From contig NZ_JACIEE010000005.1 in NCBI RefSeq assembly GCF_014196765.1, forward strand, positions 248,001 through 312,000: a stretch of DNA of 64,000 nucleotides. The letters are read 5' to 3'. Below, in pieces: positions 1-61,341 of this stretch. The stretch is from Mycoplana azooxidifex. Lineage in GTDB: Bacteria; Pseudomonadota; Alphaproteobacteria; Rhizobiales; Rhizobiaceae. The number at the start of each line of letters is the position of its first letter. The stretch's first letter is position 1. The notes below the pieces were generated by a model. That model made no database searches and had not been told where the DNA came from. It worked only from the letters and a program-made list of their open reading frames with translations. The position numbers and the translations under genes were made by a program.

Positions 1-534
1 TGATCCAAGGCTCCGGCCAGAAAACCGGAGGACAAAGGGCATACGCGATCATGCGATGGAACCAGCCGGTGGAGACCCCGGAACCAAGCATGCGCGTAGT
101 GCGCGAACGGTGAACCTGAGCCTGCCTAGGCTCGGATTCGGCTTTGTCTGCCATGGATTGGTGGGGGTATCCCAACCGCACTTCCGGCAATGAAGGTGTG
201 CCTCTTCAGTAACCCCGGCTGATGGAAAGCCGGCAGACACCAGAAAGGCCCGCACCGTCGTTGCTTCAAGATGTCCTCGCATTTCCCGGTTGGCCGGAAT
301 AGCGACTGGAGCGGTTAGTTCCAGGTACCTTACCGATGACCTCACCTTAGGGACTGATCCCAGTTCGAGGGTCGGCGGACACCCACAGGCACGTGCGACT
401 TTGGGCAAGGGCGGAGATAAGAAGATTCCCTGTCGCAATCAAGAGTTTTTTGGCCCCGCTATTGAAAAAATTCGTACAGCCCACGACATTTCGGTTCCCG
501 CATCCGATACGGCATCGCAGCAAGGACTCATTGC
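1..534. other. No convincing gene; hairpin-rich stretch
   Basis: I see no protein gene with rhizobial codon character here. A 129-codon open frame on the minus strand (49-438) has unlikely composition, no recognisable domain and no clear ribosome binding site. The sequence contains several short perfect stems: CTCCGG at 11-16 with CCGGAG at 25-30, a GAGCC/GGCTC stem near 119-134, and CCGGCT/AGCCGG near 225-243. These could belong to a structured RNA, the decayed end of a mobile element, or the 3' flank of a gene outside the window. The last part is the upstream region of the LysR gene. Confidence 0.4.
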
Positions 535-27411: not shown

Positions 27412-27779
27412 TTGAGTTGTCTGGGAAGCGGTGGCGCAGGCCGGACGGGTAAAGGAGCTCGACTGCCGTTTCGTTGGCCGCAGGAAGAAACCGGAAAAAT
27501 CCCTGCGTTCTCCATCTCCGCCGTGTCCGGTTGGCACGGCCGCGCCACCCGTGCGGATAATGATGCCGGAACGATATGGTTCCGGCCGCCTTGGCCCTCA
27601 ATCGGCGGCCCTTGACGCGCCGGATCGAATGTGGTCTCACCCGACCCCAAACGGAAAGCTCCGGATCCGCCGCTTTTTCGGCGGAAATTCGGGCGTTCCC
27701 TCCCTTAAAAGCATGAGCCGATCACGCGGAAATCCCTCCTGCGGACGGCTTCACCGCATTTCGACCGGGCCAAACGAAC
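27412..27779 (+). other. Upstream region of gltX, no gene seen
   Basis: These 368 bases hold no convincing open frame or tRNA. Two hairpins are visible: GCCGGAAC/GTTCCGGC at 27565-27586 and CCGCCG/CGGCGG with a CTTTTT loop at 27667-27684. CTTGAC at 27611-27616 is a possible -35 box but I see no good matching -10. The gltX leader may therefore be structured; I do not recognise a known element. Confidence 0.4.
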
Positions 27780-57573: not shown

Positions 57574-58551
57574 TCAGCCCGCCTTGCGCCCCTTGACCGG
57601 ACGCTTTTCGCCCGCCCTGGCATCCGGCCGAAGCCCGGTGCTCTCCCGCAGCGACCGGACCTCGTCGTCGCTTAAGAGACGTGTCGCACCCTTGGCAAGA
57701 TCGCCGAGAGGAATGTCACCGATGGAAACCCGGACAAGCCGCAGGCACTCCATCCCGAGCGCTTCGAGCATGCGCCGGATCTGCCGGTTCTTGCCCTCGG
57801 TGAGCTGCACCTCGAGCCAGGCGTTCTTCTCGCCCGATCGCAGCAGGCGCACGGCCGCCGCCGTCAGCAGTTGATCGTCCGCGACGATCCCGGCCCTCAT
57901 CCGTGCAAGCTCCGCCTCGCCCGGTACACCGGACACCTGGACATGATAGATCTTCCGGACGTCCTTGTCGGGATCGAGCAGGCGCTGCGCCATCTGTGTG
58001 TCGTTGGTGAACAGCAGCAACCCCTCACTGGCCTTGTCCAGCCGGCCGATAGGGGCGACGAAGGGCAGGTCGAGCCCTTCCAGGCAATCGAAGACGGTAT
58101 CGCGACCTTCCGGGTCGTCCCGCGTGGTGACGAGGCCGCGCGGCTTGTTCAACGCGAGATAAACCTTTTCACGCGCCGTCAGCGGCTTGCCGTCGAGCTC
58201 GATCCGGTCGGATTTCATGTCGACCCAGGTATCGACGGCGGTGGTCACCTTCTCGTTGACCCGCACCCGCCCGTCCAGAATGAAGGCCTCCGCCTGCTTT
58301 CGCGAGCAGATGCCGAGCTTGGAGAATGCCCGCTGCAGCGTCACCCGGTCGGCCTTGCCCGGTCCGGGCCTTCCGGACGGTGGCTTTCCGGCAGCCCCCT
58401 TTCCGGACACGGGTTTTCCGGCCAGGGATTTTCCAGAAAGGGGTTTTCTCGGCAGGGCTTTTCTGGGCAAGGGCGACGCTCCGGGGGCGTACCTGTCGAT
58501 CTTGGCAGACCGCACACAAGCGGGATCTGCATCTCGATCGTCAGATAACAT
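57574..58551 (-). CDS. RsuA/RluB-family pseudouridine synthase
   Basis: This 325-residue RNA-modifying enzyme has an S4 RNA-binding domain (LQRAFSKLGICSRKQAEAFI, near residue 75), followed by the catalytic GRLDKASEGLLLFTND with the nucleophilic aspartate near residue 165, and KNRQIRRMLEALG near 255. It is most like RluB/RsuA, which modify 23S or 16S rRNA. The first 65 residues are a disordered, basic tail of repeated (S/A)GKP and PRKAL units, common in rhizobial homologues. ATG at 58551 is chosen; a TTG six codons upstream is possible. It is divergent from the polyamine leader. Confidence 0.9.
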   Translation of the reverse strand: MLSDDRDADPACVRSAKIDRYAPGASPLPRKALPRKPLSGKSLAGKPVSGKGAAGKPPSGRPGPGKADRVTLQRAFSKLGICSRKQAEAFILDGRVRVNEKVTTAVDTWVDMKSDRIELDGKPLTAREKVYLALNKPRGLVTTRDDPEGRDTVFDCLEGLDLPFVAPIGRLDKASEGLLLFTNDTQMAQRLLDPDKDVRKIYHVQVSGVPGEAELARMRAGIVADDQLLTAAAVRLLRSGEKNAWLEVQLTEGKNRQIRRMLEALGMECLRLVRVSIGDIPLGDLAKGATRLLSDDEVRSLRESTGLRPDARAGEKRPVKGRKAG

Positions 58552-58613
58552 TCCGCTGCGATTTCGCAAGGCCGGATCGCGTCCGCCCGGCAGCCCATAA
58601 GCAGCCCGCCTGC

Positions 58614-58641
58614 CTTGACTTCCCTGACCATGAAGCTAGAT
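58614..58641 (+). promoter_or_regulatory. Promoter of the polyamine operon
   Basis: CTTGAC (58614-58619), 16 bases, and CTAGAT (58636-58641) match the rhizobial consensus CTTGAC-N17-CTATAT closely. Transcription would start about 58648, at or next to the ATG of a short open frame. Confidence 0.65.
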
Positions 58642-58648
58642 AGGCGCC

Positions 58649-58708
58649 ATGCTGTCTTTGCTCTCTCAAACCGGTCAGGAGTTGTCGCGCCTTGGCGCGC
58701 GATTGTAG
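58649..58708 (+). CDS. Putative 19-codon leader peptide
   Basis: The frame reads MLSLLSQTGQELSRLGARL and stops with TAG at 58706-58708. If transcription begins at about 58648 the frame would be leaderless or nearly so, since no ribosome binding site fits. Its stop codon is immediately followed by the first base of a perfect 10-bp hairpin, so ribosome position could control folding. The peptide is not recognised. An overlapping frame starting at 58630 is less likely because it lies inside the promoter. Confidence 0.4.
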   Translation: MLSLLSQTGQELSRLGARL

Positions 58709-58954
58709 CCCGACCGTCACATTTGCCCTGTAGACGGTCGGGACAGACCGTTCGCCAACCTGGCAGATGCCGAGAGACGACAATGCCGCCCCTTTGGGGA
58801 GGCAGCCTTCCGGAATGATGATGACAGTTCCCTGACACGACGACCGCAACGGCCGTTCGCACCACGGAAATGACGATGGGCCCGAAGTCTGACACCGCCT
58901 GCGCCTGCCGGCGGGCAGGACGCGCCTTTTCACGCCACGAAAGACCCGACCCGC
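58649..58954 (+). ncRNA. Structured 5' leader of the polyamine operon (attenuator-like)
   Basis: About 300 bases separate the predicted transcription start from the decarboxylase gene. Hairpin 1 pairs 58709-58718 with 58733-58742 (CCCGACCGTC/GACGGTCGGG, 10 bp, 14-base loop). Hairpin 2 pairs 58734-58739 with 58746-58751 (ACGGTC/GACCGT) and excludes hairpin 1. Further stems are TGCCgCCCC/GGGGaGGCA at 58784-58804 and CCTGCC/GGCAGG at about 58904-58919, the last followed by CGCGCCTTTTC. It recalls the alphaproteobacterial speF leader found before ornithine decarboxylase genes, but I cannot test the match. Confidence 0.55.
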
Positions 58955-60052
58955 ATGATTGAGACGCCCTACTATCTGATCGACAAGTCCAGCCTGCTCC
59001 GCAACATGGAGAAGATCGCCACGTTGCGCGAACTCTCCGGCGCCAAGGCGCTGCTGGCGCTGAAGTGCTTCGCAACGTGGTCCGTCTTCGATTTCATGCG
59101 CGACTACATGGACGGCACGACGTCGTCGTCGCTGAATGAGGTCCGCCTCGGCCATGAGCGTTTCGGCAAGGAAACGCATGCCTATTCGGTCGCCTATGCC
59201 GACTATGAAATCGACGAGGTCGTCTCCCACGCCGACAAGATCATCTTCAATTCCATCGGCCAGCTCGAGCGGTTCTCCCGCAAGGCTTCCGGCATCGTCC
59301 GCGGCCTGCGCCTCAATCCGCAGGTAAGCTCCTCCACCTTCGACCTTGCCGATCCGGCCCGGCCCTTCTCCCGGCTCGGCGAATGGGACGTGGCCAAGGT
59401 GGAGCGCGTCATGGACCGCGTCTCCGGCTTCATGATCCACAACAACTGCGAGAACGGCGACTTCGCCCTGTTCGATCGCATGCTGGGCACGATCGAGGAG
59501 AGGTTCGCGCCGCTCCTGAAGAAGGCCGAATGGGTCAGCCTCGGCGGCGGTATCCATTTCACCGGCGACAACTACCCGCTGGAGAAGTTCGCCGAGCGGC
59601 TGAAGCGCTTTGCCGGCGAGTATGGCGTCCAGGTCTATCTGGAGCCCGGCGAGGCTTCGATCACCCGATCGACCACGCTGGAAGTCACCGTGCTCGACAA
59701 GCTTTACAACGGCAAGGACCTTGTCGTGGTGGATTCGTCCATAGAAGCGCACATGCTGGATCTCCTGATCTACCGTGAAAACGCGAAGGTTCATCCCAAC
59801 CAGGGACCGCATCGTTACATGGTCTGCGGCAAGTCCTGCCTGGCCGGCGATATCTTCGGCGAGTTCGATTTTCCGAACGAGCTGAACGTCGGCGACCGGA
59901 TCTCGATCCAGGACGCAGCCGGCTACACGATGGTCAAGAAAAACTGGTTTAACGGCGTGAAAATGCCGGCAATCGCCATCCGTGAACTGGATGGCAGCCT
60001 CAGGACGGTCCGCGAGTTCGATTACGCGGACTACGAACAGAGCCTTTCCTGA
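58955..60052 (+). CDS. nspC: Carboxynorspermidine/carboxyspermidine decarboxylase
   Basis: This 365-residue PLP enzyme of the alanine racemase fold (fold III) decarboxylates carboxynorspermidine or carboxyspermidine to give norspermidine or spermidine. The PLP lysine lies in KALLALKCFATW near residue 32-38. GGGIHFTGDNYPLEKF near 190 and YLEPGEASITRSTTLE near 230 bind phosphate and substrate, and VCGKSCLAGDIFGEF near 290 contains the catalytic cysteine. The typical start METPYYLIDKSSLLRN-like sequence supports the ATG at 58955, though the upstream site is weak. The dehydrogenase partner follows after 50 bases. Confidence 0.92.
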   Translation: MIETPYYLIDKSSLLRNMEKIATLRELSGAKALLALKCFATWSVFDFMRDYMDGTTSSSLNEVRLGHERFGKETHAYSVAYADYEIDEVVSHADKIIFNSIGQLERFSRKASGIVRGLRLNPQVSSSTFDLADPARPFSRLGEWDVAKVERVMDRVSGFMIHNNCENGDFALFDRMLGTIEERFAPLLKKAEWVSLGGGIHFTGDNYPLEKFAERLKRFAGEYGVQVYLEPGEASITRSTTLEVTVLDKLYNGKDLVVVDSSIEAHMLDLLIYRENAKVHPNQGPHRYMVCGKSCLAGDIFGEFDFPNELNVGDRISIQDAAGYTMVKKNWFNGVKMPAIAIRELDGSLRTVREFDYADYEQSLS

Positions 60053-60102: not shown

Positions 60103-61341
60103 ATGAAGAAGAACGTACTCATCGTCGGCGCCGGCGGCGTCGCGCAGGTTGTCGCGCATAAATGCGCCCAGAACAACGACGTGCTCGGCGACATCCATAT
60201 CGCCTCGCGCACCAAGGCGAAGTGCGATGCCATCATCGCCTCGGTTCACGAGAAGAAGGCGATGAAACAGGAAGGCGTGCTCGAAGCCCATGCGCTCGAC
60301 GCCCTCGACATTGAGGCCACCAAGGCGCTGATCGAAAAGACCGGCAGCCAGATCGTCATCAACGTCGGCACCGCCTTCCTCAACATGTCGGTGCTGCGCG
60401 CCTGCATGGATACCGGCGTCGCCTATATCGACACCGCCATCCACGAGGACCCGAACAAGATCTGCGAGACGCCGCCGTGGTACGGGAACTACGAGTGGAA
60501 GCGTGCCGACGAATGCAAGGAGAAGGGCATCACCGCAATCCTCGGCGCCGGCTTCGACCCGGGAGTCGTCAACGCATATGCGCGTCTCGCCAGGGACGAA
60601 TATCTCGACAAGGTCACCGACGTCGACATCGTCGACATCAATGCCGGCAGCCACGGCAAGTACTTCGCCACCAACTTCGATCCGGAAATCAATTTCCGCG
60701 AGTTCACCGGCGTCGTCTACTCGTGGCAGGGCGGCGAGTGGAACGTCAACAAGATGTTCGAGATCGGCAAGGACTACGACCTGCCGGTCGTCGGCACACG
60801 CCGCGCCTATCTCTGCGGCCATGACGAGGTGCATTCGCTGGCCAAGAACATGGACGGAGCCGACGTGCGCTTCTGGATGGGCTTCGGCGATCACTACATC
60901 AACGTCTTCACCGTCCTGAAGAATATCGGCCTGCTCTCCGAGCAGCCGGTCAAGCTGGCGGACGGTACCGAAGTCGTGCCGCTCAAGGTGGTCAAGGCCT
61001 GCCTGCCCGACCCGTCTTCGCTCGCCCCCGAATACCAGGGCAAGACCTGCATCGGCGACTTCGTCAAGGGCATCAAGGACGGCAAGGAACGCGAGGTCTT
61101 CATCTACAACGTCGCCGACCACAAGGAAGCCTATAACGAAGTCGGCAGCCAGGGCATCTCCTATACAGCCGGCGTCCCCCCGGTCGCCGCCGCCATGCTG
61201 GTTGCGAGCGGCGAATGGGACGTGAAGCAGATGGCCAACGTCGAGGAACTGCCGCCCAAGCCGTTCCTCTCGGTCCTCGCCAAAATCGGCCTGTCCACCT
61301 GGATCCGCGAAAACGGCCAGGAGCGCCCGCTGTTCGAGTAA
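60103..61341 (+). CDS. Carboxynorspermidine/carboxyspermidine dehydrogenase (saccharopine dehydrogenase-like)
   Basis: This 412-residue NADPH enzyme condenses aspartate semialdehyde with a diamine (putrescine or diaminopropane) to make carboxy(nor)spermidine. The Rossmann motif is VLIVGAGGVAQVVAHKCAQ at the N-terminus and GAGFDPGVVNAYAR lies near residue 147. Relatives are often called LYS1 or saccharopine dehydrogenase, but pairing with the decarboxylase fixes the polyamine role. In many bacteria the dehydrogenase gene comes first; here it is second. A 9-bp hairpin follows at 61355. Confidence 0.92.
   Translation: MKKNVLIVGAGGVAQVVAHKCAQNNDVLGDIHIASRTKAKCDAIIASVHEKKAMKQEGVLEAHALDALDIEATKALIEKTGSQIVINVGTAFLNMSVLRACMDTGVAYIDTAIHEDPNKICETPPWYGNYEWKRADECKEKGITAILGAGFDPGVVNAYARLARDEYLDKVTDVDIVDINAGSHGKYFATNFDPEINFREFTGVVYSWQGGEWNVNKMFEIGKDYDLPVVGTRRAYLCGHDEVHSLAKNMDGADVRFWMGFGDHYINVFTVLKNIGLLSEQPVKLADGTEVVPLKVVKACLPDPSSLAPEYQGKTCIGDFVKGIKDGKEREVFIYNVADHKEAYNEVGSQGISYTAGVPPVAAAMLVASGEWDVKQMANVEELPPKPFLSVLAKIGLSTWIRENGQERPLFE

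Follow-up and report, generated by a model that had tools for sequence, protein, structure and literature searches.

How is the spermidine operon of Mycoplana azooxidifex controlled, and could the leader in front of it be a switch that is operated by a ribosome? We analyzed a stretch of 64,000 nucleotides, here referred to as the window, in which a leader region is flanked by a divergent pseudouridine synthase gene of the RluB/RsuA type (57574-58569, minus strand; TIGR00093, above cut-off) and a pair of plus-strand genes, i.e. nspC for carboxynorspermidine (carboxyspermidine) decarboxylase (58955-60052; best match TIGR01047, at 394 bits just below the cut-off of 409) and a gene for carboxynorspermidine synthase/dehydrogenase (60103-61341; best match NF043000, at 452 bits below the cut-off of 800). 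A conserved block, ACGAAAGAC (58937-58945, plus strand), probably contains the ribosome-binding site of nspC; it is the same in all seven congeners, the window's genome included, except for the last base, and its invariant part is ACGAAAGA. To our knowledge, few bacterial leader peptides are tied to polyamines. In the mainly open-access literature that was searched, and within the portions of it that were available, we found neither a description of this leader nor an account of how the genes of the carboxyspermidine route are controlled in this bacterial family, and in the available part of a paper on spermidine synthesis in Sinorhizobium meliloti, the words leader, riboswitch and untranslated do not occur (PMC13293326).

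On the plus strand, the leader region carries a -35 element, CTTGAC (58614-58619), kept in 7/7 congeners, and, after a spacer of 16 nt, a -10 element, CTAGAT (58636-58641). The promoter consensus for this alphaproteobacterial group is CTTGAC-N16-CTATAT, and the site matches it at 11 of 12 positions (0/200 shuffles), while a scan of the leader region for E. coli-type promoters returned no promoter. The -10 element ends 7 nt 5' of the ATG at 58649 that opens a short ORF (58649-58708, plus strand) of 19 sense codons, MLSLLSQTGQELSRLGARL, followed by the stop codon TAG (58706-58708); across these 60 nt, there is no indel in any of the seven congeners. Because the ATG lies only 7 nt after the -10 element, the transcript probably starts at or beside it, and the leader mRNA is probably leaderless. 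In S. meliloti, the leaderless leader ORF peTrpL is translated, according to the accessible text of PMC10117765.

The first base after the stop codon begins hairpin P2 (58709-58742, plus strand), with arms at 58709-58718 and 58733-58742 that form a perfect 10-bp helix with a 14-nt loop in the window. The original prediction had called attention to a near-consensus promoter and to a 19-codon frame with its stop abutting a perfect 10-bp hairpin, and both are confirmed in the sequence. A hairpin within the end of the ORF, P1 (58685-58702, plus strand; 58685-58690 pairs with 58697-58702), is seen in the genus and, by eye, is not kept outside it. The prediction had also included a second hairpin reusing one arm of P2, and further stems and a CCTTTT tract before nspC. 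In the window copy, ACGGTC (58734-58739) can indeed pair with GACCGT (58746-58751) over 6 bp in an alternative hairpin (58734-58751, plus strand) that shares the 3' arm of P2, and CCTTTT is present at 58925-58930 (plus strand). However, the part of the leader that contains this hairpin, the further stems and the T-tract is not conserved among the seven congeners, so that the role of switch partner assigned to the second hairpin is not supported, and no other conserved sequence with which the P2 arms could pair is seen in the window genus.

The segment with P1 and P2 (58680-58745) folds with a z-score of -4.5 (1/200 shuffles as good), and the whole 306-nt leader is not more structured than its shuffles (z = -0.37). 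Perfect 10-bp inverted repeats are not rare in the window (31 overlapping matches at 14 sites, against a mean of 4.6 in 20 Markov-1 sequences), and the tenth pair of P2 is found in only one of the seven congeners, the window. Given the seven leaders of the genus, RNAalifold recovers P1 and P2 unaided. A repeat or mobile palindrome was rejected as an explanation, as the genome has one full-length copy at the DNA level; the next match (L002) has 38 nt in common with it and is without the 3' arm of P2. Among Rfam families, none matches the leader element; an ar15 match was returned elsewhere in L192. Kinship with the speF RNA (RF00518), which the prediction had raised, was likewise rejected: in 58500-58990, there is no speF match even at E 10, and whalefall-1 is the only match (E 8.7). 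A true copy of the RF00518 speF leader lies at 81-235 (minus strand, 113 bits), and the gene behind it would fall outside the window; an ar45 sRNA match lies beside it at 244-406 (minus strand), and an Atu_At1 sRNA match is found at 27438-27546 (minus strand).

A protein search with nspC gave a match in 273 of 394 family genomes, many of them weak, and the weak matches appear to fit related decarboxylases. In the window genus, nspC and the leader are both present in all seven genomes. Each of them retains the promoter, the ORF and P2, and most other leader sequence is not conserved; the five closest congeners are 95-100% identical over the stretches of the -10/start and of the stop/P2 5' arm, with a drop to ~20% just 3' of P2. 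A pattern combining promoter and start was found in 7/388 genomes, all of the window genus, and in 0/381 other family genomes; one further match, in G054, is probably due to chance. The coding test inside the genus is weak, with 173/2000 shuffles as good for four representatives and 708/2000 for all seven.

A genus-only element is ruled out by matches before nspC in other genera. Covariance model R1, built from the seven genus leaders only, matched 14 of the 394 family genomes at E 0.01, i.e. the seven congeners, two genomes outside the genus in which the match lies before nspC (G319, E 2.9e-6; G270, E 8.8e-5) and five with weak matches (E 0.001-0.007) that are without leader anatomy; it also matched L119, L124, L128, L064 and L062, each upstream of nspC. 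These new copies have in common the promoter spacing, an ORF of 19-20 codons, CCCG immediately 3' of the stop and a C-terminal motif not found in most members of the R1 model itself. The iterated model R2, with 13 sequences (L128, with a misaligned 3' arm, was left out of it and included in R3; L107 is in no model), matched 50 of the 394 genomes at E 0.05, in 55 places. We examined 54 of these (G016 was left out), accepted 35 and held 19 as chance, giving 35 copies of the leader in 33/394 genomes and 18 genera. A strict anatomy, for which the frame has to be open, its stop has to abut CCCG and P2 has to keep 8 or more of its 9 pairs, is seen in 31 of the 35 copies (29 genomes, 16 genera), and in G209, G350, G245 and G214, P2 and the motif region are present with a sense codon replacing the stop. 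CTTGA or TTGAC lies 28-42 nt 5' of the ATG in 27/37 copies. G155 has, in addition, a second piece that resembles P2 and is not accompanied by the peptide.

Most of the 80 named loci with the best nspC matches are without this leader: it is clear in four (L088, L119, L124, L128) and weak in L107, where the stop falls at the Lys position. By eye, L012, L020 and L035, from other genera, have a different conserved leader before nspC, which includes short inverted repeats and a promoter-like sequence of its own. Across the order, 209 genomes were searched with R3; 26 had a match at E 0.01, G000 and G155 (both already known) among them, and inspection of 27 of the 28 places (L248 and L258 of these are empty) gave no accepted copy outside the family. 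In L257 (E 0.0055) and L263 (E 0.0079), an ORF ending KAG-x-stop precedes a hairpin; these two, being without a recognized target gene, were not counted. On 211 family genomes, R3 mostly returned known copies; among its other places, G178 appears degenerate, and G069, G032, G010 and G097 appear to be chance matches.

What is conserved in the ORF is the end of the peptide, with the C-terminal consensus RREPxRLKAG-x-stop across the family. In a coding test on 20 representatives of 37 rows with column shuffles, the last 11 codons score a BLOSUM value of 1.59 per codon pair versus 0.50 ± 0.24 in the shuffles (0/1000 as good), and the +1 and +2 frames of the same codons remain at chance level (0.61 and 0.40); the N-terminal part of the peptide has a weak coding score (47/1000 shuffles). 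Pairwise differences number 878, 832 and 1235 at the first, second and third codon positions, respectively. Judged by these patterns of substitution, the family-level ORF encodes a peptide that is under selection. Lys at -4 is found in 19 of the 20 representatives, encoded by AAA each time, and Gly at -2 in 18, the exceptions at both positions being from the window genus. In all 37 rows, AAA codes for every Lys at -4 despite the GC-rich genomes. The stop position holds TAG in 12 representatives, TGA in four, TAA in two and a sense codon in two; L188 and L199, from two genera, have both lost the stop and are extended by the same residues, PERR. In the window genus, Lys is replaced by Gly in 5/7 congeners and Gly by Arg or Pro in 7/7, and the window peptide, with Gly at -4 and Arg at -2, lacks the two residues typical of the KAG-stop family. 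The window copy shares with that family the promoter spacing, the length of 19-20 codons, the stop abutting P2 and nspC downstream, and in terms of its sequence it is a divergent family member; because of this divergence, the copies of the window genus may respond to a different signal or be under partly relaxed constraint. The central claim of the original prediction, a leader-peptide or attenuator-type element before the spermidine operon, had been made to depend on conservation of the peptide or the stems among orthologous leaders, and it is upheld, since both the peptide and the hairpin are conserved across genera.

The promoter-like site, the ORF, the hairpin and its covariation (see below), the coding constraint at the family level and the gene context are observed features. 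With moderate confidence, we propose that the leader is a cis-acting leader-peptide switch in which the position of a ribosome decides the folding of P2; it is probably a ribosome-operated control switch that has so far not been described. A ribosome would load on the leaderless 5' end at the AUG of the 19-codon ORF. The footprint of a terminating ribosome covers the bases just after the stop codon, and the 5' arm of P2, 9-10 nt long, begins immediately 3' of the stop. A ribosome terminating or pausing at the stop would cover this arm and P2 would stay open; once the ribosome departs, P2 would fold. The conserved RREPxRLKAG-x-stop end suggests that, in certain conditions, the nascent chain may slow termination or the decoding of the last codons. 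In the four copies without a stop, the switch cannot depend on a pause that occurs strictly at termination. Leaders with P2 open and leaders with P2 folded would differ in operon read-through, stability or translation, and because no intrinsic terminator is found in 58300-59200 of the window, the likely output would be Rho, an RNase or RNA-RNA pairing. Translation, the pause, the effect on P2, the direction of control and a polyamine-related signal are inferred.

We consider it unlikely that the leader is instead a translation-efficiency sensor, in which the ribosome density on the uORF would expose RNA to Rho or hide it and the peptide sequence would be irrelevant. The missing terminator and the diversity of the target genes described below would suit such a sensor, and in the uORF attenuator of S. 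meliloti DUF1127, it is the RNA and not the peptide sequence that matters, according to the available portion of PMC12218461. By contrast, the last 11 codons show conservation of their amino acids across genera, which argues against an irrelevant peptide, and the window leader is without a C-over-G excess, no Rho-like bias standing out in it (maximum 0.12 versus the window's 95th percentile of 0.14).

In the aligned copies, P2 covaries across the family. In 27 sequences, P2 is paired in 97.9% of 243 cells (0/500 shuffles), and slid controls are 22-47% paired. Double-changed cells number 10 (0/500 shuffles) and pairs with a double change three, the latter being equalled in 111/500 shuffles. In the set of 13 sequences, four pairs have a double change (7/500 shuffles) with 14 such cells (0/500); in the genus alone, two pairs do, which is equalled in 98/500 shuffles. 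A possible pseudoknot helix, in which a loop of the CCTGGC type can pair with GCCAGG just 3' of P2, is seen in 18/27 representatives (L187 by eye) and is lengthened to 9 bp with different flanks in two lineages; only five of these helices singly beat tail shuffles at 0.05, and most of the pairs are invariant. The covariation of P2 and the possible pseudoknot, together with the conserved nucleotides and weak coding test of the genus, could be taken to mean that P2, joined in many relatives by the pseudoknot, stabilizes the mRNA or acts as an RNA that binds a ligand or protein, and that the ORF is incidental. We find this improbable, as the coding signal and the placement of the stop speak for a translated ORF, the CCTGGC/GCCAGG pseudoknot is missing from 7/7 congeners, window included, and the element has no match in Rfam.

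To define the targets, we counted the first of four gene families located downstream of P2 in the same orientation and within 411 nt. In 34 of the 35 copies, nspC, a gene for a PTS EIIA-type protein, a gene for a protein of ~275 amino acids or a pseudouridine synthase gene starts within this distance; in G314, none of the four does. First in line is nspC in 13 copies, EIIA in 14 (PF00359 in 3/3 tested), the 275-aa gene in three, two of which continue with nspC, and pseudouridine synthase in four (TIGR00093 above cut-off in 2/2 tested). EIIA is followed by the 275-aa gene and nspC in eight copies, by the 275-aa gene only in one, and stands alone within the available stretch in five. Directly or in line, nspC is thus behind the leader in 23/35 places. 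Another copy of the leader in the window's own genome (G000:C17:2275-2364; R2 E 4.5e-7) precedes an EIIA gene and is without an ATG in place.

The EIIA-type genes (PF00359) start ~80-130 nt 3' of P2 in L203, L205-L208, L211, L214-L216, L218, L219, L222, L224 and L232, often at the head of the row of spermidine genes. Pseudouridine synthase genes follow the leader in L210, L212, L213 and L217, an arrangement that is degenerate in L285; those of L210 and L217 belong to TIGR00093, the subfamily of the divergent gene at 57574-58569 in the window. Members of the ~275-aa family (L124:2113-2931, L128:2068-2910) are also found behind leaders in L175, L204, L206, L207, L208, L215, L216, L218, L220, L222, L224 and L232, and in most of these loci they stand in one row with nspC; their C-terminus, where read, is of the type SVNxSLxARxMKRRxLGL. 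At E 0.001, neither Pfam nor NCBIfam contains a family that matches the protein (a single Pfam match, at E 0.08, is below cut-off), its AlphaFold model is too poor for a structure search (mean pLDDT 46.5), and a search that was without a positive control found none in the window's own genome.

That the element stays before a few gene families fits cis action. A short transcript or peptide acting in trans, as reported for rnTrpL/peTrpL of S. meliloti, is very unlikely by comparison, even though trpL has the same layout, with a short ORF that is leaderless and 5'-terminal (PMC10117765, in its available part), and a trans role is stated for peTrpL (PMC7298713, likewise), because in the window no terminator was found that would define a short RNA. 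A DNA operator, in which a perfect 10-bp inverted repeat close to the promoter would bind a dimeric regulator, we dismiss almost entirely, as the half-sites change on both sides together, their spacing varies and a stop codon abuts the repeat in 31/35 copies.

For the leader-peptide switch, a polyamine-related signal is plausible given the 23/35 places with nspC behind the leader, and the copies before EIIA alone or pseudouridine synthase weaken a purely polyamine reading. Going further, we tentatively suggest, as a possibility we would not bet on, that a rhizobial family of arrest peptides ending in RREPxRLKAG-x-stop, combined with a stop-abutting hairpin and perhaps a pseudoknot, responds to the state of the ribosome or to a polyamine-related signal, and controls a regulon of spermidine synthesis, PTS-EIIA, the 275-aa protein and pseudouridine synthase. 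The conserved peptide and stop-abutting hairpin in 18 genera provide a defined target for mutation, and, through one common leader, a PTS-EIIA protein and a family without known function are connected with the spermidine genes in a regulon that can be tested.

How does this leader compare with known systems? In agreement with leader-peptide attenuators in general, a short ORF at the 5' end is conserved as protein at the family level, and a covarying helix is placed such that the position of a ribosome could decide its folding; of the classical form, an intrinsic terminator was not found in 58300-59200 of the window, and the alternative hairpin is not conserved. Leaders of trp operons sense through codon runs, whereas no codon run is seen here, no terminator was found and the target genes are other ones. 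Like S. meliloti trpL (rnTrpL/peTrpL), the leader is rhizobial and has a short leader ORF that is leaderless, as far as the available text of PMC10117765 describes trpL. Similarly, in the Bordetella CruR (DUF2946) uORF and the RAPP arrest peptides, a uORF product with a conserved C-terminal motif controls downstream genes (PMC9426467, available part); however, CruR is a small protein compared with the 19-20 codons here and its signal is copper, and the RAPP motif occurs in 0/37 peptides. The S. meliloti DUF1127 attenuator is another rhizobial uORF with control over a gene 3' of it in which no functional intrinsic terminator takes part, and it differs in having a Shine-Dalgarno sequence and in being indifferent to the peptide sequence (PMC12218461, in the part available).

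The leader is a member of neither the RF00518 nor the SpeFL family. RF00518 is also a cis element before a polyamine decarboxylase gene, with conservation that starts near the putative transcription start (PMC1273637, accessible part), and differs in that its model has no match at the leader and that the next gene here is nspC and not an ornithine decarboxylase gene. SpeFL, by contrast with the peptides described here, is a gamma-proteobacterial peptide of 34 amino acids with a Shine-Dalgarno start before an ornithine decarboxylase gene, and its core (DUF2618), HIRRT...HIMM, is by eye in none of the 37 peptides when compared with the core given in the available part of PMC6386406. In the published model of the Salmonella speF leader, ribosome pausing at the uORF stop blocks a downstream hairpin, with Rho and RNase G as outputs. 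Judged from the same part of PMC6386406, the Salmonella and E. coli speF leaders with orf34 (SpeFL) and the leader described here thus have an overall similar layout, with a 5'-proximal uORF before a polyamine gene, no intrinsic terminator and a hairpin 3' of the uORF stop, and by analogy we propose that the folding of this hairpin would depend on the ribosome in the rhizobial leader as well.
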